A stretch of DNA of 64,000 bases. Source: Caulobacter sp. AP07 (lineage in GTDB: Bacteria > Pseudomonadota > Alphaproteobacteria > Caulobacterales > Caulobacteraceae). Below, one piece after another: positions 36,683 through 56,559 of this stretch. Below the pieces are notes generated by a model, which saw nothing but the letters and a program-made list of their open reading frames with translations, had not been told where the DNA came from and ran no database searches. How positions within the stretch are numbered: the stretch's first letter is position 1; every line of letters starts with the position of its first letter. The DNA lies in the NCBI RefSeq assembly GCF_000281955.1, contig NZ_AKKF01000004.1, positions 1 through 64,000 of the forward strand. The letters are read 5' to 3'. The translations under genes were made by a program, and so were the position numbers.

Positions 36683-38080
36683 ATGGCCGAGGCTCCCGAC
36701 GGCACCGAACTGGCGGCCATGATCCGGCGCGGCGACCTGACGGCGGTCGAGGCGATCGACGCCGCCATCGCCCGGGTCGAGGTCCTGCAGCCCAGGCTGA
36801 ACTTCCTGGTCGCCGAGACCTACGAGCGGGCCCGCGACCGGGCCAAGGCGGGCGGGCTGAGCGGGCCATTCGCCGGGGTGCCCTATCTGATCAAGGACAT
36901 GTTCGACGTCGTCGGCTCGACCACCCGCTATGGCTCGCGCTTCAGCGCCGCCCTGCCGCCGGCCGGGGCGCAAGGACCGATGATCGACGCCCTGGAGCGC
37001 GCGGGGCTGGTGCTGATCGGGCGCTCGGCCCTGGGCGAGTTCGGCTTCCTGCCGACCACCGAGCCGCTGGCCTTCGGCCCGACGCGCAGTCCCTGGAACC
37101 CCGAGCGCACGCCGGGCGGCTCGTCCGGCGGCGCCGCGGCCGCCGTGGCCTCCGGCGCCGTGCCCATGGCCGACGCGGCCGACGGCGGCGGTTCGATCCG
37201 CATCCCGGCCTCGGCCTGCGGCCTCTTCGGCCTGAAGCCGTCGCGCGGCCGGATGGTCGGCGACCAGATGCCTGCCGCCGGTTTCGACGTGACGGTGCAG
37301 CACGGCCTGACGCGCACCGTGCGCGACTCGGCGACCCTGTTCGCGGCCACGGAACGTCGGGACGGGAGCGCGGCCTTCGCGCCGGTCGGCGTGGTGACCA
37401 CCGCCAACGTCCGTCGGCTGCGGGTGGGGCTGGTGCCCCACGGCTTGAACGGACGGCCGGCGGATCCCCAGGTCCAGGCCGGGGTCGATGCGACGGTCCG
37501 CCTGTTGGCCGGCCTGGGCCACGCGGTGCGACCGACCGACTGGCCGATCGACGGGCGCGAGCAGGGCGCCGATTTCATGACGCTGTGGACCAACGCGGCC
37601 TTCGACGTCACGCGGCTGATCCGCCAGATGACCGGACAGCCCCCCGACGCGCGCCAGCTGGAACCTTTCACCCTGGCCATGGCGGAGATGGCGGCCGCCG
37701 CCCCGGCGGGCGCTCTGGACGCCGCCCGGACGCGCCTGCGCGCCGTGGCGGCCGCCTACGACCGGTGGTTCGCCGATTTCGACGTCATCCTGTCGCCGGT
37801 GCTGACCACCCCGCCGATACCGATCGGCCAGATCGCCGGCGACGTGCCGTTCGAGACCATGTTCGAGCGGTTGGGGCGCTTCAGCAACTACACCACCCTG
37901 CACAACATCGCCGGCTCCCCGGCCATGAGCGTCCCGCTGCACTGGACCGACGACGGCCTGCCGGTCGGCCTGCAGTTCGCCGCGCGGGCCGGCGACGAGC
38001 GGACCCTGTTCGAGCTGGCCTTCGAACTGGAGGCCGCCCAGCCCTGGGCTCACCGACGGCCGGCGGTGTGGGCGGACTAG
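36683..38080 (+). CDS. Amidase-signature enzyme
   Basis: 465 residues. The Ser-Ser-Lys triad is visible: Lys in YLIKDMFD, Ser in GGSSGGAAAAVASGAVPMADAADGGGSIRIPA (second Ser in GGSIR). The region DVILSPVLTTPP and C-terminal GLPVGLQFAARAGDE support the fold. It may hydrolyse amides or aryl acylamides; it is not GatA, since no GatB/C is near. 80 bp after the DsbA-fold gene. Confidence 0.93.
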   Translation: MAEAPDGTELAAMIRRGDLTAVEAIDAAIARVEVLQPRLNFLVAETYERARDRAKAGGLSGPFAGVPYLIKDMFDVVGSTTRYGSRFSAALPPAGAQGPMIDALERAGLVLIGRSALGEFGFLPTTEPLAFGPTRSPWNPERTPGGSSGGAAAAVASGAVPMADAADGGGSIRIPASACGLFGLKPSRGRMVGDQMPAAGFDVTVQHGLTRTVRDSATLFAATERRDGSAAFAPVGVVTTANVRRLRVGLVPHGLNGRPADPQVQAGVDATVRLLAGLGHAVRPTDWPIDGREQGADFMTLWTNAAFDVTRLIRQMTGQPPDARQLEPFTLAMAEMAAAAPAGALDAARTRLRAVAAAYDRWFADFDVILSPVLTTPPIPIGQIAGDVPFETMFERLGRFSNYTTLHNIAGSPAMSVPLHWTDDGLPVGLQFAARAGDERTLFELAFELEAAQPWAHRRPAVWAD

Positions 38081-38201
38081 GAGCGGATCGGCCGCACGGT
38101 TCCTTATGATCGTCTTATGCCGCCACCCCGGTTCCGAATGGATCGCTTACGCCCCGGCGCGCGAGACTCGGCAGGTGATGCACCTCGCCAGGAACCGCCC
38201 C

Positions 38202-38489
38202 ATGACCTCCGCGACCGGTCAGAAACTCGCCTCGCTGCTGCTCTCCCTGGGCGGCGTCGCCGGCTTCGCCGCGCTGCTGGTGGTGGGCGTCCACCACCCG
38301 GCCCAGGCCGGGGTGCTGTGGTTCTGCGCCTTCGTCTGGCTGCTGGCCTGCGGGGTCAGCAAGCTGGTGTTCGACCTGAGCGAGGCGGCGGGGCGCGACG
38401 CCGACCGGGACGGCGGGCCACGCTCGCGGACCCGAGGCGGGGCGAGGACGGTCTGGCGGGACGCGGGCGACGGCTCTAAGGACCGGTGA
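38202..38489 (+). CDS. Small membrane protein of unknown function
   Basis: 95 residues with two transmembrane helices (about 8-30 and 34-56; LASLLLSLGGVAGFAALLVVGV and VLWFCAFVWLLACGVSKLVF) and a charged, Arg/Asp/Gly-rich tail. ATG 38202 has AGGA upstream; ATG 38178 is an in-frame alternative. No family recognised. Confidence 0.65.
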   Translation: MTSATGQKLASLLLSLGGVAGFAALLVVGVHHPAQAGVLWFCAFVWLLACGVSKLVFDLSEAAGRDADRDGGPRSRTRGGARTVWRDAGDGSKDR

Positions 38490-38520
38490 CGCCGATCGCC
38501 GCCTCCAGGCAGGAACCCCC

Positions 38521-38982
38521 ATGGCCGACGACCTCATCATCCGCCCGATCGCCCAGGCCGACCACGACCGGTGGCTGCCGCTGTGGGACGGCTACAACGC
38601 CTTTTACGGCCGGGCCGGCGACACCGCCCTGGACCCGGCGATCACCGCCATGACCTGGAGCCGGTTCTTCGACGCCTATGAACCCGTCCACGCCCTGGTC
38701 GCCGAACGCGGCGGCCGGCTGCTGGGCCTGACCCACTACCTGTTCCACCGCAGCACCACGGCGATCGCGCCCATCTGCTACCTGCAGGACCTGTTCACCA
38801 CCGCCGAGGCGCGGGGCCACGGCGTGGGGCGGGCGCTGATCGAGGGGGTGTACGACGCGGTCCGGGCGGCCGGGGCGAGCCGGGTCTATTGGCAGACGCA
38901 CGAGACCAACGCGACGGCGATGCGGCTGTACGACCAGGTGGCCGAGAAGTCGGGGTTCTTGGTGTATCGGAAGCTGGCCTGA
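38521..38982 (+). CDS. GNAT-family N-acetyltransferase
   Basis: 153 residues. GNAT fold with CYLQDLFTTAEARGHGVGRALIEGVYDAVRAAGASRVYWQTHETNATAMRLYDQVAEKSGFLVYRK, which covers the acetyl-CoA motif and the terminal strand. Substrate unknown, possibly a small amine or amino acid. Good ribosome site AGGAA. 31 bp after the small membrane gene. Confidence 0.9.
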   Translation: MADDLIIRPIAQADHDRWLPLWDGYNAFYGRAGDTALDPAITAMTWSRFFDAYEPVHALVAERGGRLLGLTHYLFHRSTTAIAPICYLQDLFTTAEARGHGVGRALIEGVYDAVRAAGASRVYWQTHETNATAMRLYDQVAEKSGFLVYRKLA

Positions 38983-39064
38983 TGATCCCTATAGTTTTGC
39001 CATATCTAAAACTCAACATATGGGAGAGTGTGCGGGCAACGGTTTGTCCGACCAGGAACTCGCC

Positions 39065-39583
39065 ATGCGCCGCCCCCGCCTCTGGACCCTCGCGACCCTG
39101 TGTCTCGCCGCTTCCGCCTGCGCCCCGCCCGCCGCCAAGGCCCCGCAGGTCGCCGCCGGCCCGGGCCAGTGCGGCGGTTCGGTCATCCCGCCGCAGGTCC
39201 GTCTGACACCGGCCGAGATCGCCGCCCTGCCCAGTAGCGGGAAGCCGGGGGGCGTCCAGACCACCGTGCTCTACGGCGATCCGGGTCAACCTGGCCTCTA
39301 CACGGCGATGCTGGCCATTCCGGCCGGTTTCGTGCTGGCCGCCCACACCCATGAGGACACCCGCACGACGACGGTGGTATCGGGGACGTGGTCCATCGGT
39401 TACGGCCGGAAATTCGACGTGGCCCAGACCAAGGCCCTGCCGCCGGGCAGCCTCTATAGCGAGCCCAAGACCGTGGCCCACTTCGGGACGGCCAAGGACG
39501 GGCCGGTGGTGCTCTATGTCACGGGCTGCGGGCCGTCGAACACGGTGTTCGTGGATCCGCCAGCCCCGCCCGCGTCGCGCTAG
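39065..39583 (+). CDS. Cupin-fold lipoprotein
   Basis: 172 residues. Type II signal peptide with lipobox AASAC (about Cys19), then a cupin: motif 1 AAHTHEDTRTTTVVSGTWSIGYG with His-x-His-x(3)-type ligands and motif 2 near PGSLYSEPKTVAHFG. Anchored cupins of this type may bind a metal in the periplasm; substrate unknown. An upstream ATG at 39020 is rejected because it would bury the signal peptide. Confidence 0.85.
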   Translation: MRRPRLWTLATLCLAASACAPPAAKAPQVAAGPGQCGGSVIPPQVRLTPAEIAALPSSGKPGGVQTTVLYGDPGQPGLYTAMLAIPAGFVLAAHTHEDTRTTTVVSGTWSIGYGRKFDVAQTKALPPGSLYSEPKTVAHFGTAKDGPVVLYVTGCGPSNTVFVDPPAPPASR

Positions 39584-39743
39584 ACTCCCCACCCTCCACC
39601 TGCTACACGCCGCGCCTCGCTCCAGGACTCCGTCCCGGGGCGTGCTTGTCGTTCTCGGCAAGCTCAAATCCGTGGGAGGGCCGCCAGCCCGCACCACGGC
39701 CACACAGCGAAGGCCGTTAGCTCGGCTTTCTTGAGAGGATACG

Positions 39744-40175
39744 ATGGCTAAGAAGATCCTGGGCTATATCAAGCTCCAGGTGAAGGCCGGCTCCGCCACG
39801 CCTTCACCGCCCATCGGCCCCGCACTGGGCCAGCGCGGCGTCAACATCATGGGCTTCTGTAAGGAGTTCAACGCGCGCACCGAGAACGTCGAAAAGGGCA
39901 CCCCCCTGCCGACCGTGATCACCGTGTACCAAGACAAGTCGTTCACCTTCGTCACCAAGACCCCGCCGGCGACGCACTATCTGAAGCAGATCACCGGCCT
40001 GAAGTCCGGCGCCAAGCTGACCGGTCGCGAGACCGTCGGCGAAGTGACGCGCACCCAGCTGCGCGAGATCGCCGAAAAGAAGATGAAGGACCTGAACGCC
40101 AACGATCTCGAGGCCGCGGCCAAGATCATCGAAGGCTCCGCCAAGGCCATGGGCCTGAAGATCGTGGAGGCCTAA
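39744..40175 (+). CDS. rplK: 50S ribosomal protein L11
   Basis: 143 residues. L11 binds the GTPase-associated region of 23S rRNA and is needed for RelA activation. [37 protein letters not shown] at the N-terminus and the C-terminal RNA-binding domain ([23 protein letters not shown]) are typical. A GAGAGGA ribosome site precedes ATG. 4 bp before rplA. Confidence 0.98.
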
Positions 40176-40179
40176 GACC

Positions 40180-40869
40180 ATGGCCAAGCAACCCAAGCGC
40201 ATCCAGGCCTGGACCGGCGACCGTGAGTCCGCTCACGCCGTCTCCGAAGCCATCGCCCTGGTCAAGGCCAACGCCAAGGCCAAGTTCGACGAGTCGGTCG
40301 AGATCTCGATCAACCTCGGCGTCGACCCGCGCCACGCCGACCAACAGGTCCGCGGCGTCGTCAACCTGCCGTCGGGCACCGGCCGTGACGTCCGCGTCGC
40401 CGTCTTCGCCAAGGACGCCAAGGCCGCCGAAGCCACCGCGGCCGGCGCCGAACACGTCGGCGCGGAAGATCTGTACGAAAAGATCGCCGGCGGCTTCATG
40501 GACTTCGATCGCGTCATCGCGACCCCGGACATGATGGCCCTGGTCGGTCGTCTCGGTAAGGTGCTGGGCCCGCGCGGCCTGATGCCCAACCCGAAGGTCG
40601 GCACCGTGACCCCGAACGTCGCCCAGGCCGTCAAGGACGCCAAGGGCGGCGCCGTCGAGTTCCGCGTCGAGAAGGCGGGCATCGTCCACGCCGGCATCGG
40701 CAAGGTCTCGTTCACCGACGAAGCCCTGCTGCTGAACGTCAAGGCCATCGTTGACGCGCTCAACAAGGCCAAGCCGACCGGCGCCAAGGGCGTCTATGTG
40801 AAGCGTATCGGCCTGTCCTCGACGATGGGTCCGGGCTTCAAGATCGACGTGGCCTCGATCAACGCCTAA
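40180..40869 (+). CDS. rplA: 50S ribosomal protein L1
   Basis: 229 residues. L1 forms the L1 stalk for E-site tRNA release and represses its own operon in other bacteria. [59 protein letters not shown] and the end [11 protein letters not shown] are family hallmarks. Terminator follows at 40895. Confidence 0.98.
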
Positions 40870-40894
40870 GGCGTTCTTCGACCCAGGATCACGG

Positions 40895-40926
40895 AACGGG
40901 CGCTGGAGCGATCCAGCGCCCGTTTT
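40895..40926 (+). terminator. Rho-independent terminator after rplA
   Basis: AACGGGCGCTGG / CCAGCGCCCGTT 12-bp perfect stem with a 6-base loop and TTTT. Confidence 0.92.
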
Positions 40927-40941
40927 GCGTTTGGGGCGCGG

Positions 40942-40969
40942 TTGGTCGGTGGTTCGGCCAATGCTAGAT
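40942..40969 (+). promoter_or_regulatory. Predicted promoter for the VapB-like/flavoprotein pair
   Basis: TTGGTC (40942-40947), 16-bp spacer, CTAGAT (40964-40969), preceded by G to give GCTAGAT, close to the Caulobacter -10. The -10 overlaps a GANTC site (GATTC 40967-40971). Confidence 0.5.
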
Positions 40970-41008
40970 TCAAGACCGCACCTCGCATTTTCCGAAGGCG
41001 GACTTCCA

Positions 41009-41188
41009 ATGGCCATTCACGTCGCGAACCCGGAAGTCTGTGCTCTGGTGAAGTTGTTCGCCAAGGAGCGCGGCGTGAGCATGAGCGAAGCCGTGAAGAT
41101 CGCCGTCAGAGAAGCTCTGGCGGCGAGAGACGAGCCGGTAAGCGCGATGAAGGCGGATATCGCTGCGATTGATATCGAGCCCGCGTGA
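41009..41188 (+). CDS. VapB-like (Rv0623-type) orphan antitoxin
   Basis: 59 residues. MAIHVANPEVCALVKLFAKERGVSMSEAVKIAVREAL matches the ribbon-helix-helix antitoxin family named after Rv0623, which is normally followed by a PIN-domain VapC toxin. Here the next gene is a flavoprotein whose GTG overlaps this stop codon (GTGA, 41185-41188). No VapC is present. ATG 41009 is chosen over a 40925 start for family length. Confidence 0.85.
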   Translation: MAIHVANPEVCALVKLFAKERGVSMSEAVKIAVREALAARDEPVSAMKADIAAIDIEPA

Positions 41189-42402
41189 TCGAACCTCAAA
41201 CCCCAGACGTCGCCGTGATCGGCGGCGGGCCGGCCGGGCTGATGGCGGCCGAGGTGCTGAGCGCGGCCGGGCTGTCGGTGGCGGTGTACGAGCGCATGCC
41301 GACCCTGGGGCGCAAGTTCCTGATGGCCGGGCGTGGCGGGCTGAACCTGACCCATTCGGAGGAGTTCGAACGGTTCGCCGGCCGCTATGGCGCGGCGGGC
41401 GAGCGGTTGCGGCCGATGCTGGAGGCCTTCACCCCCGCCGACCTCGTGGCCTGGGCGAACGGGCTGGGGCAGGCGACCTTCGTCGGCTCCAGCGGCCGGG
41501 TGTTTCCCAGGGCGCTGAAGGCCTCGCCGCTGCTGCGGGCCTGGATCGCGCGGCTGGAGGGGCAGGGGGTGACGCTGAACACCCGGACCGCCTGGACCGG
41601 CTGGACCGCGGCCGGCGACCTGGCCTTCGACACGGTCGAGGGGCCGCTGACCGTCCGCCCGCGCGCCACGATCCTGGCCCTGGGCGGCGCAAGTTGGGCC
41701 AAGCTCGGCTCCGACGGGGCCTGGGCGCCGCTGCTGGCCGCGCGGGGCGCTCCGGTCGCGCCGTTCCGCCCGGCCAATGTCGGTTTCACGGTGGCGTGGA
41801 GCGCGGTGTTCCGCGAGCGCTTCGCCGGCTGTCCGCTGAAGAACATCGCCTTGAGCTTCGAAGGCGCGACCGCGCGCGGCGACGCCCTGGCGGCGGGCTA
41901 CGGCCTGGAGGGCGGGGCGGTCTACGCCCTGTCGGCGGCCTTGCGCGACGCGGTCGAAGGGCGGGGCAGCGCGACGCTGACGGTTGATCTGCGGCCCGAC
42001 CTGTCGGTCGCCCAGCTGACGGCCAGGCTGAGCCGGCCGCGCGGCGGGCAGTCGCTGTCGAGCTGGCTGCGCAAGGCCGCCCACCTGTCGCCGGTCGAGA
42101 TCGGCCTGCTGCGCGAGGCCCACGGCGTGGCCCTGCCGGTCGCGCCCGACGCCCTGGCGGCGGCGATCAAGGCCGCGCCGATCGTGCTGACCGGCGTCCA
42201 GGGCCTGGAGCGGGCGATCTCGTCGGCCGGCGGCCTGGACTTCGCGGCGCTGGACGGGCTGGAACTGAAGGCGGCGCCCGGGGTGTTCGTGGCCGGCGAG
42301 ATGCTGGACTGGGAGGCCCCGACCGGCGGCTACCTGCTGCAGGCGTGCTTCGCGACGGGCGTGGCGGCGGCCAGGGCGGTGGTCGAGCGGTTGAGGGGCT
42401 GA
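41185..42402 (+). CDS. HI0933/BaiN-family FAD-dependent flavoprotein (TIGR03862 type)
   Basis: 405 residues. Rossmann FAD site VAVIGGGPAGLMAAEVL, YERMPTLGRKFLMAGRGGLNLTHSE and the C-terminal GVFVAGEMLDWEAPTGGYLLQACFATG match the family. Members are predicted NAD(P)/FAD oxidoreductases; BaiN acts on bile acids in gut bacteria, but role here is unknown. GTG start overlaps the VapB-like stop, so translation is coupled. Confidence 0.92.
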   Translation: MIEPQTPDVAVIGGGPAGLMAAEVLSAAGLSVAVYERMPTLGRKFLMAGRGGLNLTHSEEFERFAGRYGAAGERLRPMLEAFTPADLVAWANGLGQATFVGSSGRVFPRALKASPLLRAWIARLEGQGVTLNTRTAWTGWTAAGDLAFDTVEGPLTVRPRATILALGGASWAKLGSDGAWAPLLAARGAPVAPFRPANVGFTVAWSAVFRERFAGCPLKNIALSFEGATARGDALAAGYGLEGGAVYALSAALRDAVEGRGSATLTVDLRPDLSVAQLTARLSRPRGGQSLSSWLRKAAHLSPVEIGLLREAHGVALPVAPDALAAAIKAAPIVLTGVQGLERAISSAGGLDFAALDGLELKAAPGVFVAGEMLDWEAPTGGYLLQACFATGVAAARAVVERLRG

Positions 42403-42411
42403 TCCCGGACT

Positions 42412-42437
42412 GGGGACAGGCGCATGCGCCTGTCCCC
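42412..42437. repeat. 26-bp perfect palindrome, type G copy 2
   Basis: Identical to 14976-15001 (GGGGACAGGCGCA plus its complement). It lies between convergent genes, 10 bp after one stop and 3 bp from the other. Confidence 0.92.
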
Positions 42438-42439
42438 GA

Positions 42440-43792
42440 TCACGGAGCCTTCATCGCCCCTCTGATCTTCGCCGCCATCGCCTCGATCTCCTTCGGGTCG
42501 CCCTTCTCGTTCTCGACGAATGTCAGCGGCTTGCCGGCGACACGCGGAATGACGTGGACGTGCAGGTGCGGCACGCTCTGGCCGACGCCGTTGTTCTGGA
42601 CGATCGTGAAGCCCTCCACGCCCAGGCCGTCGACCTGGGCCTGGCCGACGCGGGCGGCCACAGCCATGATCCGCGACAGGTCCTGCGGCGCGATCTCCAG
42701 GAGGTTGCGGGCCTTGGAGGTCTTGGAGATCACCAGCACGTGGCCGGGCTCGGCCGGGGCGTGGTCCATGAAGGCCAGGACCTGGTCGTCCTCGTAGACC
42801 TTGGGCACGGCGACCTCGCCGCGCAGGATCCGGGCGAACGGGTTGGTCTCGTCATAGGCCGCCTTCAGCGGGATCTGAGGCGTGCCCGGCCTGGCCGAGG
42901 CGGGGTCGAAGCGGCCCAGCCAGCGGAGGATCTCGGCCGTCAGCGCGATGCGGGCGTCCGAGAAGCTGTGGTCGGTGGCCAGGCGGGTTTCGGTCAGGGC
43001 CGGCGCGCCGGCCTGGCGCGCGGCCTGGGCCAGCTTGGTCGCGCCGATGCCGTAGTCGGCCCCGACCAGCAGCAGCGGACGATCGGCGATCCGGGCCACC
43101 AGGCTTTCCAGGTTCAGCCTGGAGCCGCTGGTCTCGATCTCCTTGATCAGCAGTTCGGCGCTGGTCCCGGCCAGGGGCACGGTGTCGGGACGCAGGGCGG
43201 CGGCGGCGGCCTTGCGCACGGCCGGGCTGGTGATCTTCGCCTTCTCGCCGCCGATGTCCCAGGCGTCGACCAGGATGGTCCCGGCCACCTTGGGGTCGGC
43301 GGCCGAGGCGTCGGCGGCCATGAAGCCGCCCATGCTGTGGCCGGCCACCACGATCCGCGTCGGGTCGATGTGGTACTTGGCGACATTGGCCGGGTCGCGC
43401 AGGAAGGCCACGGCGGCCTCGCCGTCGGCGCGGGCGTGGGCGAACAAGAAGCTTCCCGGGCTGCCCCAGGAGCCGCGATAGTTGATCCGCATCACGTTCC
43501 AGCCGGCCCGGCGCACGGCCTGCATGATGTCGACATTGGTCTCGTTGCCCGGGAAGCCGTGCAGGAACAGCAGGGTGGGGTGGGGCGCCTCGCCCGAGGC
43601 CAGGTACATCACCGCATTGACCCCTACCCCGCCGGTCGGAACGGTGAAGGCGGCCAGGTCGGCCGGATGGGCCGCGTCGCGGGCGGTGTCGGCGACCACC
43701 GCCCTGGGGATCGGCGCGAAACGCGGCTCGGCCTGGACGGTGGTGGCGAGCAGCAGGAGGGCGGCGAGCCCGGCGGTGAACGTGCGGATCAT
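42440..43792 (-). CDS. Secreted alpha/beta hydrolase fused to a HIT domain
   Basis: 450 residues. Signal peptide 1-21, then an alpha/beta hydrolase (about 45-300): LFLHGFPGNE (oxyanion), nucleophile GHSMGG (Ser153), Asp246 in GADYG as a possible acid, His275 in TDHSF. From about residue 311 a complete HIT domain begins AAYDETNPFARILRGE, with KVYEDDQVLAFMDHAP and catalytic HLHVHVIPR (His409, 411, 413). HIT proteins cleave nucleotide-phosphate bonds and are usually cytosolic and separate. No in-frame stop between the domains. The fused HIT has an N-terminus like a free HIT protein. Confidence 0.88.
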   Translation of the reverse strand: MIRTFTAGLAALLLLATTVQAEPRFAPIPRAVVADTARDAAHPADLAAFTVPTGGVGVNAVMYLASGEAPHPTLLFLHGFPGNETNVDIMQAVRRAGWNVMRINYRGSWGSPGSFLFAHARADGEAAVAFLRDPANVAKYHIDPTRIVVAGHSMGGFMAADASAADPKVAGTILVDAWDIGGEKAKITSPAVRKAAAAALRPDTVPLAGTSAELLIKEIETSGSRLNLESLVARIADRPLLLVGADYGIGATKLAQAARQAGAPALTETRLATDHSFSDARIALTAEILRWLGRFDPASARPGTPQIPLKAAYDETNPFARILRGEVAVPKVYEDDQVLAFMDHAPAEPGHVLVISKTSKARNLLEIAPQDLSRIMAVAARVGQAQVDGLGVEGFTIVQNNGVGQSVPHLHVHVIPRVAGKPLTFVENEKGDPKEIEAMAAKIRGAMKAP

Positions 43793-44187
43793 GGAAGGGG
43801 CCCCCTCGACGGTCCCCTTGTTATCCGGGAAATCCGACGGATGACCAGTCTCCCGTCCTCCTCGCTGGCGATGGAAGATGCCGGGTGTTGAAATCCGTCT
43901 GCAAACCGTCTATACGCCGCCCCTTCTCCGCTGGGCTCGCCCGGCGGTGATCCTGTTTGAGAACTGCGGGACGTGGGGTCACCACGCCATAATCGAGGAA
44001 GAGCCCTTCCTCGCCGTCGGGAGACAGGGATGGACAAGACCACGCTATTTCCTCCTTCACGGATGGGACGCGCGGCTGACTTTCCTTGGAACAGGCTGAT
44101 GCAACTCGCGTGCGGGAGCGATCCCTCATGCGTCGGGCATTTGGCTGCCGGAATGGTCCGGCCGCTGTAATTGAGTAGGAGACCGCA
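43793..44187 (+). promoter_or_regulatory. rplJ leader with predicted promoter and L10-type control region
   Basis: 395 bp without a convincing gene. TTGAAA (43888-43893), 17-bp spacer and TATACG (43911-43916) form a good promoter, giving a leader of about 270 bases. Hairpins such as CGTGG-GGTCA-CCACG (near 43969) and a GGCTGCCGGAATGGTCCGGCCGC region lie before the AGGAG ribosome site of rplJ. Long rplJ leaders bind L10-L12 in other bacteria. A 65-codon frame at 43973-44170 is judged spurious. Confidence 0.65.
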
Positions 44188-44706
44188 ATGGACCGCGCTC
44201 AAAAGCAGGAGTCGATCGAATCGCTGAAAGGCGTGTTCGAAGGCGCCGGCGCTGTCGTCGTGACCCACTACATGGGCATGACCGTTGCGGAAATGACTGA
44301 ACTGCGTAGCCGCCTCCGCAAGGAAGAGGCCACGTTCCAGGTGGTGAAGAACACCCTGGTCCAGAAGGCCCTCGGTGGCTCGATCGGTGAAGCGGGCGAC
44401 GCCCTGTTCACCGGCCCGGTCGCCATCGCCTTCGGCAAGGACCCGGTCTCCGCCGCCAAGATCGTCACCCAGTACGCCAAGGAAAACGACAAGCTCAAGC
44501 TGGTCGGCGGCATCCTGGGTCAGACGACTGTTCTGGACGAAAAAGCGGTGCGGGCTCTCGCCACGCTGCCGTCGCTCGACCAGATCCGTGGCAAGCTTAT
44601 CGGCCTCATCCAGGCTCCGGCGACCAAGATCGCCGGCGTCCTGCAGGCCCCGGCTGGCCAACTGGCGCGCGTCTTCAACGCTTATGCGACCAAAGACGCC
44701 GCGTAA
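44188..44706 (+). CDS. rplJ: 50S ribosomal protein L10
   Basis: 172 residues. L10 is the base of the stalk that holds L7/L12 dimers and represses its own mRNA. AVVVTHYMGMTVAEMTELRSRLRKEEATFQVVKNTLVQKAL, the N-terminal rRNA-binding domain, and the C-terminal helix that binds L12 (VLQAPAGQLARVFNAYATK) are clear. AGGAG ribosome site; rplL follows after 45 bp. Confidence 0.98.
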   Translation: MDRAQKQESIESLKGVFEGAGAVVVTHYMGMTVAEMTELRSRLRKEEATFQVVKNTLVQKALGGSIGEAGDALFTGPVAIAFGKDPVSAAKIVTQYAKENDKLKLVGGILGQTTVLDEKAVRALATLPSLDQIRGKLIGLIQAPATKIAGVLQAPAGQLARVFNAYATKDAA

Positions 44707-44751
44707 CGGTCATCTCCGCGTACATCCCTCATTCGTTTTAGGAAAATGAAC

Positions 44752-45135
44752 ATGTCCAAGCTCGAAAAGCTGGTTGAAGAACTGTCCACCCTGTCGGTCC
44801 TCGAAGCCGCTGATCTGTCCAAGATGCTGGAAGAAAAGTGGGGCGTTTCGGCCGCTGCTCCGGTCGCCGTCGCCGCTGCTGGCGGCGCCGCCGCTGCTCC
44901 GGCCGAAGCCGCCGAAGAGCAAACCGAGTTCACCGTTGTTCTGACCGCCGGTGGCGACAAGAAGATCAACGTGATCAAGGAAGTCCGCGGCGTCCGTCCG
45001 GACCTCGGCCTGAAGGAAGCCAAGGACCTGGTCGAAGGCGCTCCGCAGAACGTCGTCGAAAACGTCTCCAAGCAAGTCGCCGAAGAGATCGCCAAGAAGC
45101 TGACCGAAGCCGGCGCCAGCGTCACCGTGAAGTAA
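44752..45135 (+). CDS. rplL: 50S ribosomal protein L7/L12
   Basis: 127 residues. The stalk protein that recruits translation GTPases. N-terminal dimer domain ([24 protein letters not shown]), an Ala/Gly-rich hinge, and a C-terminal domain with [21 protein letters not shown] and [16 protein letters not shown] 44752 fits the AGGA spacing better than ATG 44746. Confidence 0.98.
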
Positions 45136-45141
45136 TTCACG

Positions 45142-45161
45142 TCCCACGCTCCGGCGTGGGA
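45142..45161 (+). terminator. Hairpin after rplL
   Basis: TCCCACGC / GCGTGGGA with a 4-base loop, 6 bp after the stop, without a T tract. It may stabilise the mRNA end upstream of the stronger terminator at 45197. Confidence 0.5.
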
Positions 45162-45196
45162 ACGACCTGCCGGCGTCAGTTCTGACGCCAAGATCG

Positions 45197-45228
45197 CGGC
45201 CCCGGAGGGAAACCTCCGGGGCCGTTTT
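45197..45228 (+). terminator. Rho-independent terminator after rplL
   Basis: CGGCCCCGGAGG-GAAA-CCTCCGGGGCCG, 12-bp perfect stem followed by TTTTCG. It separates rplJL from the downstream GH31 gene and rpoBC. Confidence 0.92.
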
Positions 45229-45382
45229 CGTTCTTCGTCTGCCTGATCGGCTTCGCGATCTCGCTGGTCGGCAAGGCGATCCGGCGCGATCGAGGTCCAT
45301 TGGTAGTATCAATCTTGTTGACGCTGCCCGGCCTCATCTCTAGCCATGCGGTCAATAGATAGCGGTAACATTAGGGGAAGCG

Positions 45383-47752
45383 ATGGATCGGCTGAGCAAG
45401 AGCGCGCGGCGCTGGTCGGCGAGACTGGTCTTGGGCCTGGCCCTGAGCCTCGCCGCCGGGGTCATGGCCAATCTGGCCGCGCCGATGACGGCCGCGGCCG
45501 AGCCCCTGGCGGTGATGGACCGCAACGGTTCCTACGTTTCGGTCGAGACCTACGCTCCCAACATCGTCCGGGTGACGATCAGCCAGGACAAGGACCTGGC
45601 CGCCGGGGCCCCCGGCTACGGCTTCACCGGCCAGAGCGACGCCAAGGGCTGGCGCCATGACCAGAAGGCCGGAGCCGACATCTTCACCTCCGGCGCGCTG
45701 TCGCTGGAAGTCGTGGCCCAGCCCTGGCCGGGCGCGCCCTCACAGATGGATCGCTACTTCGCCCCGTCGCTGCCGCCGGTTTCGGTCAAGGTGCGCAAGG
45801 CCGACGGTTCGGACCTGGTGGCGATGAATGGCTGGGAAATGTCGCCGCACGTCGTGGCGGGCGAGAAGACCTACCAGGCCGGGGCCAGCTTCTCGACCAG
45901 CGCCGACGAGCACTTCTACGGCCTGGGCCAGAACCAGGAAGGGATTCTGGACCTGCGCGGTCGGACCATCGACTGCAAGCACTTCTACGACGCCCCGCAC
46001 GGCGAGACCGTCTGCGTGCCGTTCATGGTCTCGTCGAAGGGCTACGGCATCCTGTGGGACAACCCGTCCGACACCCACGTCTATCCGGCCGTCAACGGCC
46101 GCACCCTGTGGCAGTCGAACGTCGGCGAGCGGGTGTCGTTCTTCGTGATCACCGGCGGCTATGACGAGATCTACGCCGGCTACCGCAAGCTGACGGGCGT
46201 GACGCCGCTGCCGCCCAAGGCCGCCTTCGGCCTGATCCAGTCCAAGGCCCGCTACGAGAGCCAGCAGCAGATTCTCGACGCCGCCAAGGGCTATCGCGAC
46301 CGCGGCTATCCGCTGGATGTGATGGTGCTGGACTGGTTCCACTGGACCCGGATGGGCCAGATGGACATCGACCCGACCTACTTCCCCGACCCGGCCGCGA
46401 TGAACAAGGACCTGCACGACCACGGCGTGCGCAGCATCATCAGCGTCTGGCCGCGCTACGAGAAGGAAGGCCGCTACTTCAACTTCCTGGCCGACAAGGG
46501 CTGGCTGCTCAAGGACGCCGACGGCAAGGTCGTCGACGGCCTGGCGTTCCGCAGCGACCGCACCGGCGGCCTGATCGACAGCACCAATCCCCAGGCCCGC
46601 GAGTGGTACTGGGGCAAGATCCGCGACAACATCGCCTCCAAGGGCTTCGATTGGTTCTGGCTGGACGAGACCGAGCCGGACCTGGTGCCGGACGGCTATT
46701 TCTATTCGATCGGCTCGGGCGACCGCTATCACAACGTCTTCCCGCTGCTGCACACCCAGGGCGTGGCCGAGGGTTCGCGCCGCGACCGGCCCGACAAGCG
46801 CAACCTGATCCTGGCCCGCGCGGCCTATATCGGTTCGCAGCGCAACGGCGGCCTGTTCTGGTCGTCCGACATCCAGCCGACCTGGGAAGCTCTCAAGCGG
46901 CAAGTGCCGACGGGGCTGAACTTCACCGCCTCGGGCCTGGCCTATTGGGGCAACGACATCGGCGGCTGGCAGTGGCTGCCGCAGACCACCACGGCGACCA
47001 AGGCGCCGCTGCTGGATCCGTCCGACGCCCGCGCCGTGGTCGGCCAGAACAACGACTATCCCGAGCTGCTGGCGCGCTGGTTCCAGTACGGGACCTTCAC
47101 CCCGACCCTGCGCATCCACGGTTCGCGCAAGGAGGTCGAGATCTGGCAGTACGGCAAGGGCGCCGAGGCGGTCATGGCCAAGTACCTGAAGCTGCGCTAC
47201 GCCCTGATGCCGTACCTGTACTCGATGGGCCATGCGACCTACGAGACCGGCGCGCCGTTCATGCGCGGGCTGTTCATGGACTTCCCGGGCGATCCCAAGG
47301 TGGCCAACCTCGGCGACCAGTACATGTTCGGTCCGGCCTTCCTGGTGGCCCCGATCACCGACCAGGGCGTCGAGGACCGCGACGTCTACCTGCCGGCCGG
47401 GGCCGACTGGTACGACTACTGGAGCGGCAAGAAGTTCACCGGCGGCCAGACGATCAGCGTCCATGCGCCGATCGACACCATCCCGCTGTTCGTCCGGGCC
47501 GGCTCGATCGTCCCGATGGGCGCGCCGATCCAGAGCACGGCCACGCCGCAGGCGATCAACGCGGTGAAGGTCTATCCGGGCCGCGACGCCGAGTTCACCC
47601 TCTATGACGACGACGGGGTGACCAACGCCTACGAGAAGGGTGTCGGCAAGACGGTGAAGCTGCACTGGGACGACAAGGCCGGCAAGCTGACGGCCGTGGG
47701 CGACAAGGGCCTCGGCGCCCAGGCGCTGGCGGCGGTGCAGGTGGTGAAATAA
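45383..47752 (+). CDS. Secreted GH31 glycoside hydrolase (alpha-xylosidase/alpha-glucosidase type)
   Basis: 789 residues. Signal peptide (about 1-39), N-terminal beta-sandwich, (beta/alpha)8 barrel with VMVLDWFHWTRMGQMDID, nucleophile Asp about 428 in FWLDETEPDL and acid/base Asp about 496 in LFWSSDIQPTW, then GNDIGGW and C-terminal beta domains. The WLDETEP context is close to alpha-xylosidases of xyloglucan users. No other sugar-use genes are adjacent. It stands alone between rplL and rpoB with its own terminator upstream and a repeat element downstream. Confidence 0.92.
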   Translation: MDRLSKSARRWSARLVLGLALSLAAGVMANLAAPMTAAAEPLAVMDRNGSYVSVETYAPNIVRVTISQDKDLAAGAPGYGFTGQSDAKGWRHDQKAGADIFTSGALSLEVVAQPWPGAPSQMDRYFAPSLPPVSVKVRKADGSDLVAMNGWEMSPHVVAGEKTYQAGASFSTSADEHFYGLGQNQEGILDLRGRTIDCKHFYDAPHGETVCVPFMVSSKGYGILWDNPSDTHVYPAVNGRTLWQSNVGERVSFFVITGGYDEIYAGYRKLTGVTPLPPKAAFGLIQSKARYESQQQILDAAKGYRDRGYPLDVMVLDWFHWTRMGQMDIDPTYFPDPAAMNKDLHDHGVRSIISVWPRYEKEGRYFNFLADKGWLLKDADGKVVDGLAFRSDRTGGLIDSTNPQAREWYWGKIRDNIASKGFDWFWLDETEPDLVPDGYFYSIGSGDRYHNVFPLLHTQGVAEGSRRDRPDKRNLILARAAYIGSQRNGGLFWSSDIQPTWEALKRQVPTGLNFTASGLAYWGNDIGGWQWLPQTTTATKAPLLDPSDARAVVGQNNDYPELLARWFQYGTFTPTLRIHGSRKEVEIWQYGKGAEAVMAKYLKLRYALMPYLYSMGHATYETGAPFMRGLFMDFPGDPKVANLGDQYMFGPAFLVAPITDQGVEDRDVYLPAGADWYDYWSGKKFTGGQTISVHAPIDTIPLFVRAGSIVPMGAPIQSTATPQAINAVKVYPGRDAEFTLYDDDGVTNAYEKGVGKTVKLHWDDKAGKLTAVGDKGLGAQALAAVQVVK

Positions 47753-47756
47753 CCAC

Positions 47757-47869
47757 TGTCATCCCGGACAAGCGCGCAGCGCGCCGATCCGGGACCGACG
47801 CCTGAGCTCGGCGCTTCCGGCGGTCCCGGATCTGCGCCCGGCTCAGGCGGGCGCAGATCCGGGATGACA
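47757..47869. repeat. Palindromic element, type A copy 3
   Basis: Perfect 12-bp ends TGTCATCCCGGA (47757-47768) and TCCGGGATGACA (47858-47869). The interior carries GATCCGGGACCG and CGGTCCCGGATC, plus an extra GCGCCCG.../CGGGCGC arm. It starts 4 bp after the GH31 stop codon. Confidence 0.92.
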
Positions 47870-48197
47870 ACGGTGGGGGAAGTTCCAAGCCTCACCGAAC
47901 GCGTCCGCATTCTTTTGTGGATAAACCCCCTTTCCAACCCCGTCGGGTTGGCCTATATCCGCCCGTTCACGAAGACATTCGGCGGAGCGCGCACGCGCGT
48001 GTCCGCATATTACGCCCCGAGGCGCGGTCAGCCGCCCTCCGATCCGCGCGAAGGGGCGCCCGTCAAGCTTCCGGTCCCGGTCGCCTGGCAGGGGAATTCC
48101 AGCGTCCAGCGTTCTCTCAAGCGGAGAGCGGCGAGGGTGGACGCTAAGGCATTCGAATTTACGCGCGGACTCCAGTTCCGCGCCGCAGGGAAAAAAC
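47870..48197 (+). promoter_or_regulatory. rpoB upstream region and leader
   Basis: 328 bp without a gene. A perfect hairpin CCAACCC-CGTC-GGGTTGG is at 47934-47951, followed by TATAT. I find no promoter core I would call with confidence. A ribosome site AGGGAAA precedes rpoB. Confidence 0.4.
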
Positions 48198-52280
<4,083 letters not shown>

Positions 52281-52289
52281 TCCGGATCA

Positions 52290-52315
52290 CCGCTCCCGCC
52301 TGATGGCGGGAGCGG
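52290..52315 (+). other. Hairpin between rpoB and rpoC
   Basis: CCGCTCCCGCC-TGAT-GGCGGGAGCGG, 11-bp perfect stem, 9 bp after rpoB, no T tract. It may be a processing or pause structure that tunes rpoC relative to rpoB. Confidence 0.75.
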
Positions 52316-52374
52316 ACCCGATCGCCGCTCTCCAACTTTGAATTTTCGCGGGTAATCCCGCAGAAGGAACCAAG

Positions 52375-56559
<4,185 letters not shown>

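Follow-up and report, generated by a model that had tools for sequence, protein, structure and literature searches.

HIT enzymes are nearly ubiquitous and act through a nucleotidyl-histidine intermediate, but little is known of what they truly act on in bacteria. NitFhit belongs to the Fhit branch of the superfamily, has a nitrilase-fold partner and is intracellular. In fly and worm this protein joins a hydrolase to a HIT-superfamily domain (PDB 1ems; PMC9913352, in the portion of the paper available), as does the gene described here, which differs in its alpha/beta-hydrolase fold, its HinT-like HIT domain and its predicted signal peptide; 1ems matched the HIT part only (E 2.6e-5). The MccH phosphoramidases share the HIT fold and act on nucleotide phosphoramides; neither of the marks given for them in PMC7157772, a triad of the form HxHxK and a missing outer histidine, is present here. 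In the activation of remdesivir, as given in the accessible part of PMC8370248, CES1/cathepsin A and then HINT1, an esterase followed by a HIT phosphoramidase, act on one conjugate; these are separate human proteins, not fused, and they serve as an analogy for mechanism only.

The window, the whole stretch of DNA that was analysed, comprises 64,000 nucleotides of Caulobacter sp. AP07 (contig NZ_AKKF01000004.1, positions 1 to 64,000). On its minus strand, at 42440..43792, lies a gene of 450 codons plus a stop, with an ATG start and a single frame. The original prediction was that this frame encodes a secreted-type alpha/beta hydrolase and a complete HIT domain, with the nucleophile elbow GHSMGG and the motif HLHVHVIPR. 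This was confirmed: the motifs are present at residues 151-156 and 409-417, and both domains scored above their Pfam cut-offs. HIT PF01230 reached 71 bits over residues 329-417 (E 1.4e-19; cut-off 21.5), and the alpha/beta-hydrolase models PF12697 and PF00561 matched residues 74-199 (41.4 bits against 26.3) and 72-218 (37.7 bits against 25.8). No NCBIfam cut-off was reached by the hydrolase half or the HIT half.

All features of the gene are on the minus strand. A Sec signal peptide (residues 1-21, VQA↓EP, 43730..43792) is predicted from a regular expression and hydrophobicity only. It is followed by the alpha/beta-hydrolase domain (residues 22 to ~300, 42893..43729), which is delimited by Pfam, by Foldseek matches to esterases and, at its C-terminal end, by stand-alone relatives. 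The elbow with Ser153 lies at 43325..43342, and His275, probably the catalytic histidine to judge from the fold, at 42968..42970 within the motif TDHSFSD, which is invariant in 24 rows. A linker of about residues 301-306 (42875..42892), set by the domain limits and modelled with low confidence, leads to the complete HIT domain (residues 307-450, 42443..42874), which begins at the former initiator position (Ile307, ATC) and is defined by Pfam, structure matches and a comparison of junctions.

The full-length fused frame was found in 23 of 61 sampled genomes of the genus, the window's own included, at 64-100% identity to the window protein, and a 24th (G144) came from the family sample. The fused loci with record titles are all from Caulobacter (11/11). 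All 24 genes cross the junction in one frame and encode both GHS-x-GG and H-x-H-x-H. The original prediction had named two observations that would overturn it, a stop or frameshift at the junction and relatives with separate genes and an ATG there. Neither was seen in any of the 24 genes, and at the former HIT start not only ATG but also GTG and TTG are lacking in every one. There is hardly any doubt that the fused gene is real and represents a conserved domain fusion.

As far as sampled, the fusion occurs in one genus, Caulobacter, only. The samples are partial for each group and comprised 61 genus, 249 family, 398 order and 398 phylum genomes, together with 337 + 115 class genomes for the HIT half only. 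In the family sample 65/249 genomes matched at E 1e-40; 19 matches were full-length, all of the genus, and the remainder covered the hydrolase half only, none extending past query residue 325. Matches were obtained in 27/398 genomes of the order at E 1e-60, eight of them full-length and all of the genus, and in 8/398 of the phylum at E 1e-45 (two full-length, both of the genus, five hydrolase only and one HIT only). The HIT half alone matched 1/337 class genomes at E 1e-30, which was the window's own. An extra scan of genome contigs with short patterns from the fused protein returned 11 fused loci, 38 with the hydrolase only, most of them from Sphingobium, and two with HIT only, 51 in all. The reach of all these searches was limited to relatives of the fused protein, so that HIT fusions of unrelated alpha/beta hydrolases would have escaped them. 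Among plasmids 54 records matched, none covering 80% of the query.

Outside the genus the sampled genomes carry the hydrolase alone. These stand-alone, probably exported hydrolases of Sphingobium and other genera of the family (L049-L086, L090-L100) have the same hydrolase domain, mostly at 37-52% identity with one partial match at 60%, and a similar C-terminal limit; unlike the fusion, they have no HIT domain. A stand-alone hydrolase is also present in three genomes of the genus (G016, G039 and G058), and in G058 it occurs in addition to the fusion, to which it is 40% identical. Within the genus the fusion is patchy, by loss or by transfer. In a tree of ribosomal proteins L10 and L7/L12, in which rows with one protein missing were gap-filled and the two fused loci without L10 are absent, fused and unfused genomes were intermixed; because of this intermixing, and because branch support is not shown, the tree cannot separate losses from transfers.

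The junction was compared with the ends of stand-alone proteins. Among 51 stand-alone hydrolase loci, seven of them unscored, the distance from the Asp of DHxF to the C-terminus was 27 residues in 37 loci, all from the contig pattern scan, and 22-29 in seven further loci of the family. In the fused genes (n = 24) 37-39 residues separate this Asp from the first Tyr of the HIT domain. Ordinary HIT proteins, of which 64 loci were compared, have a Met six residues before that Tyr in 34 of the 49 loci that fit the pattern. At the same position the fused genes encode Ile in 19 cases (ATC 14, ATT 5), Pro in three, Val in one and Leu (CTG) in one, and Met in none of the 24. The Leu two residues past the former initiator is kept in 24/24 fused genes, as in 34 of the 49 pattern-fitting stand-alone loci. 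The linker is thus of four to six residues with the commonest hydrolase length, and of two to eleven over the whole range. These distances, together with the residues at the former HIT start, indicate that two whole genes were joined and that the old initiator was lost.

Each half of the fusion forms a single group in its own tree. All 24 fused HIT rows grouped together among 87 rows (FastTree support 0.97), as did all 24 fused hydrolase rows among 75 (support 0.999); in a more careful HIT tree of 71 rows, made up of eight of the 24 fused sequences and 63 others, the eight representatives grouped at 95/95. One fusion event is therefore the simplest account, and the sequences are most simply read as an end-to-end fusion of single origin within Caulobacter.

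By similarity, the nearest proteins to the fused HIT half are the ordinary HIT proteins of the family (47-53%). In the careful tree it fell on a long branch, with poorly resolved placement, outside the family's ordinary HIT group, which itself was supported at 96/99. Constraining the fused rows to group with the family's HIT rows cost 4.9 log units (p-AU 0.40), and constraining them to group with the genus's own HIT copies alone cost 11.4 log units (p-AU 0.25); neither arrangement was rejected. The quick tree grouped the fused rows with twelve HIT proteins of the short type (support 0.836). The HIT half would derive from a second HIT gene, either the genus's own duplicate or an acquired one, and the trees favour neither; whether it was an own duplicate has no bearing on the function of the enzyme. 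A separate HIT gene is kept in all 23 carriers from the genus sample, although the copy in G018 is truncated by the end of its contig. In the window's genome this ordinary gene is on another contig and its product is 47% identical to the fused HIT domain.

The fused gene has a constant neighbour. A flavoprotein gene (HI0933/TIGR03862; 41185..42402, plus strand) adjoins the fusion in 24/24 loci, and on the other side a gene for ribosomal protein L10 (44188..44706, plus strand), which we take to be rplJ, was found within the stretch fetched in 22/24; for L021, one of the two remaining loci, L10 is visible in L047, a record that extends further. The genus has 38 sampled genomes without the fusion, and L10 was found in 19 of the 20 that were queried. 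In seven of these 19 the flavoprotein gene lay no more than 1.5 kb from L10 with no fusion between them, and in twelve it was beyond reach. In the 250 bases upstream of the 24 genes, on both strands, no PhoB-like site was found at 11 of 14 matches, and Rfam gave no match over 38000-50000.

Two observations on the surrounding DNA may be recorded here. A small Rv0623-like (PF07704) antitoxin-type gene at 41009-41188 of the window (plus strand) overlaps the start of the flavoprotein gene; the stretch 41012-41188 scored 33.6 bits with PF07704, against 28.3, and no toxin gene to go with it was noticed alongside. The cluster of ribosomal protein and RNA polymerase genes at 39744-56559 is apparently interrupted twice, by the flavoprotein gene and the fusion between L1 and L10, and, between L7/L12 and probable rpoB at 48198, by a large gene that resembles a glucosidase (45383-47752). 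The gene names in this cluster are presumed from sequence, size and place.

All 24 fused proteins have a hydrophobic N-terminus by a simple rule, and a regular expression for signal peptidase matched 23 of them; the 24th (L012) has LQA↓EP, which is outside the pattern. The stand-alone hydrolase relatives that were printed have starts resembling signal peptides, as judged by eye and unscored. Among 64 ordinary HIT loci a crude rule found a hydrophobic stretch within 60 residues upstream in only one (L037), where it precedes the probable start MSLDGT. By these simple sequence rules the fused protein is very probably exported. The original prediction had placed the HIT domain in the periplasm on account of the signal peptide. 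The leader predicted in the fused proteins and the similar starts of the stand-alone hydrolases agree with this, and the location stands as a prediction only.

The possibility that an internal start releases a cytosolic HIT protein was considered and, on the evidence of a start-codon scan of the 24 fused genes, rejected as a general rule. Between the last hydrolase strand and the first HIT Tyr no in-frame ATG, GTG or TTG was found in 22 of the 24; L014 and L089 have one GTG each. Codons too late to give a whole HIT domain also occur within it: L017 and L020 have ATG, L022 and L027 have TTG, and nine genes, the window's among them, have GTG.

In the hydrolase half Ser153 and His275 are invariant in the 24 rows. 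The acid is probably Asp or Glu at 246, by eye from the sequence, and its identity is not invariant. Among the best 50 Foldseek rows this half was placed with esterases, lipases and S9 peptidases (top match 7qjm, E 8.3e-15). The UilS lactonase model NF047920 gave 23.5 bits, well short of its cut-off of 400. As only general Pfam models, and no NCBIfam model at its cut-off, recognise the hydrolase half, its sequence points to no particular substrate.

The explanation that we prefer is of an exported bifunctional enzyme whose two halves would act in sequence on nucleotide conjugates; taken whole, we give it somewhat less than an even chance. A gene for an exported, esterase-like serine hydrolase would have been joined to a second HIT gene, and the product would be Sec-exported, most likely to the periplasm, and probably dimeric through its HIT domains. 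In a first step the hydrolase domain would take off an acyl, aminoacyl ester or peptide group; in a second, the HIT domain would cleave a nucleotidyl phosphoramidate or ester bond to give a nucleoside monophosphate. There is a precedent for this order of steps in the action of CES1/CatA and then HINT1 on remdesivir, as reported in the accessible part of PMC8370248. The role of the enzyme might be to take apart outside nucleotide conjugates, whether food or antibiotics, before they enter the cell. That nucleotide conjugates are the joint substrate of both halves is a tentative proposal, possible rather than probable.

In HINT1 the phosphate is held by groups on the pre-triad loop. The corresponding loop in the fused protein, NGVGQSVP (residues 401-408, 42569..42592, minus strand), lacks two residues relative to the other HIT proteins compared. 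Counting between the NG-motif Asn and the triad's first His gives 8 in 24/24 fused proteins; among 63 other HIT proteins the same count was 10 in 54 by rule, 10 or 11 by eye in the other nine, and 8 in none. The five solved structures in the alignment show the same two-residue gap relative to the fused loop. Long-type stand-alone HIT proteins (Caulobacteraceae, and Bartonella 3lb5, which matched with E 3.1e-24) have the same HIT domain with a C-terminal extension; they differ in starting near the domain without a hydrophobic leader, in having a pre-triad loop two residues longer and in forming a tree group of their own from which the fused proteins are excluded. The HinT models NF007965 (purine nucleoside phosphoramidase; 45.6 against 206) and NF045834 (82.4 against 130) stayed below their cut-offs. 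In view of the role of this loop in HINT1, the change probably alters specificity or rate.

The whole protein was modelled by AlphaFold2 from 39 rows (mean pLDDT 79.6, pTM 0.72). Values of pLDDT were below 50 over most of the leader, the linker (305-311) and a loop at 401-405, and the best 50 Foldseek rows of the whole model included one HIT row, 3lb5 (TM by target 0.82). With its pre-triad loop both shorter and poorly modelled, the HIT half may have had its activity or specificity changed or lost.

The catalytic residues of the HIT half are kept. His409, His411 and His413, which form the triad (42554..42568, minus strand), and His351 (42740..42742, minus strand) are invariant in the 24 rows. 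His351 is taken as the counterpart of the histidine outside the triad, H39 in E. coli HinT, and was matched to it by eye from the description in the available text of PMC7157772. Mean pairwise identity is 0.80 for the HIT half against 0.72 for the hydrolase half. Differences per codon position were 0.142, 0.113 and 0.249 in the HIT half and 0.213, 0.174 and 0.296 in the hydrolase half, and the third position was highest in every segment. Ratios of median dN/dS (Biopython NG86) were 0.71 for the signal peptide, 0.55 for the hydrolase, 0.71 for the linker and 0.45 for the HIT half; these values are approximate, given the high GC content and wide divergence of the genes. With its catalytic histidines invariant and the higher conservation of the two, the HIT half is no decaying tail. 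The invariant residues suggest, with reasonable but far from full confidence, that both active sites work.

HIT proteins form dimers, and it could be argued that the domain is only a dimerisation or ligand-binding module of an exported esterase and catalyses nothing outside the cell. The loop altered in 24/24 proteins would fit such a role, and no periplasmic nucleotide substrate is known here. A scaffold would not need catalytic residues, however, and the triad histidines and His351 are invariant in what is the more conserved half; we regard a purely structural role as rather unlikely.

Two unrelated periplasmic activities, an esterase and a nucleotide hydrolase, might alternatively share nothing more than export and expression, since neighbouring genes may fuse when the stop and start codons that separate them are lost, and this requires no functional link. 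The surroundings of the stand-alone hydrolases lean this way: no shared functional theme was found among the neighbours of 14 of them, mostly Caulobacteraceae and with crude gene calls, and the fetched flanks of 51 loci (L031, L032, L049-L086 and L090-L100) held no HIT gene. Against it, the joint has been retained across orthologues down to 63% identity to the window protein, and two independent functions on one chain seem rather unlikely, to the same degree as a purely structural role.

One neighbourhood of the stand-alone hydrolase did recur. In 36 of the 38 loci L049-L086, from the pattern scan and mostly Sphingobium, it sits between rbfA and tdk; tdk was named by NF003300 for one locus, L050, and rbfA and truB are the names that we presume for the neighbours concerned. 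As a control, the family of genome G1124 (presumed Sphingomonadaceae) was searched, and tdk was present in 63/89 genomes. Among the 30 tdk loci returned the hydrolase was within 1.5 kb of none, and both rbfA and truB lay around tdk in 15; in G1124 and in the genome of L079 the hydrolase is present but away from tdk. The control confined this neighbourhood to part of one group, and the link to thymidine kinase, the only genomic one to nucleosides, was set aside as evidence for nucleotides. With this link weakened and no PhoB-like site upstream, the suggestion in the original prediction that the enzyme could process nucleotides or nucleotide esters outside the cell is a conjecture.

MccH presumably acts in the cytoplasm, which counts against an MccH-type defence enzyme that destroys peptidyl-nucleotide antibiotics. 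A peptide-trimming hydrolase partner would suit such an enzyme, and MccH-clade HIT enzymes split processed microcin C at its phosphoramide bond, but in 24/24 fused proteins the third residue of the triad is His and not Lys and the outer His is kept rather than replaced by Phe, contrary to the MccH signature (PMC7157772, in the portion available), and this identity is very improbable. Least credible of all is an assembly or sequencing artefact that merged two genes, for which nothing was found beyond the 326 contigs of the window's genome, because 24 orthologous genes of one genus, in different genomes of which G003, G026 and G047 are each a single contig, read through and have no ATG, GTG or TTG where HIT once began.

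The original prediction had also supposed the combination to be unreported. Among the matches listed in the open-licence PMC literature, where titles and the starts of abstracts were covered, there was no report of an alpha/beta hydrolase-HIT fusion or of a periplasmic HIT enzyme, which agrees with that supposition and is weak evidence of novelty. The component families are already known; what would be new is their fusion, exported by prediction.

The exported bifunctional enzyme that we prefer has a stronger form, which is the more doubtful: an esterase-phosphoramidase that takes nucleotide conjugates apart beyond the cytoplasm, whose altered loop on the phosphate side would give it a substrate range of its own, and the first HIT enzyme built for the bacterial periplasm as far as the literature was searched. 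In Caulobacter an extra HIT domain has been tied to a hydrolase of the exported esterase kind, with its histidines kept and its loop changed, and the partner and the predicted compartment narrow the range of possible substrates. If the proposal is correct, nucleotide conjugates would be processed outside the cytoplasm, and the fused protein would unite on one chain the two chemical steps known from the activation of remdesivir.
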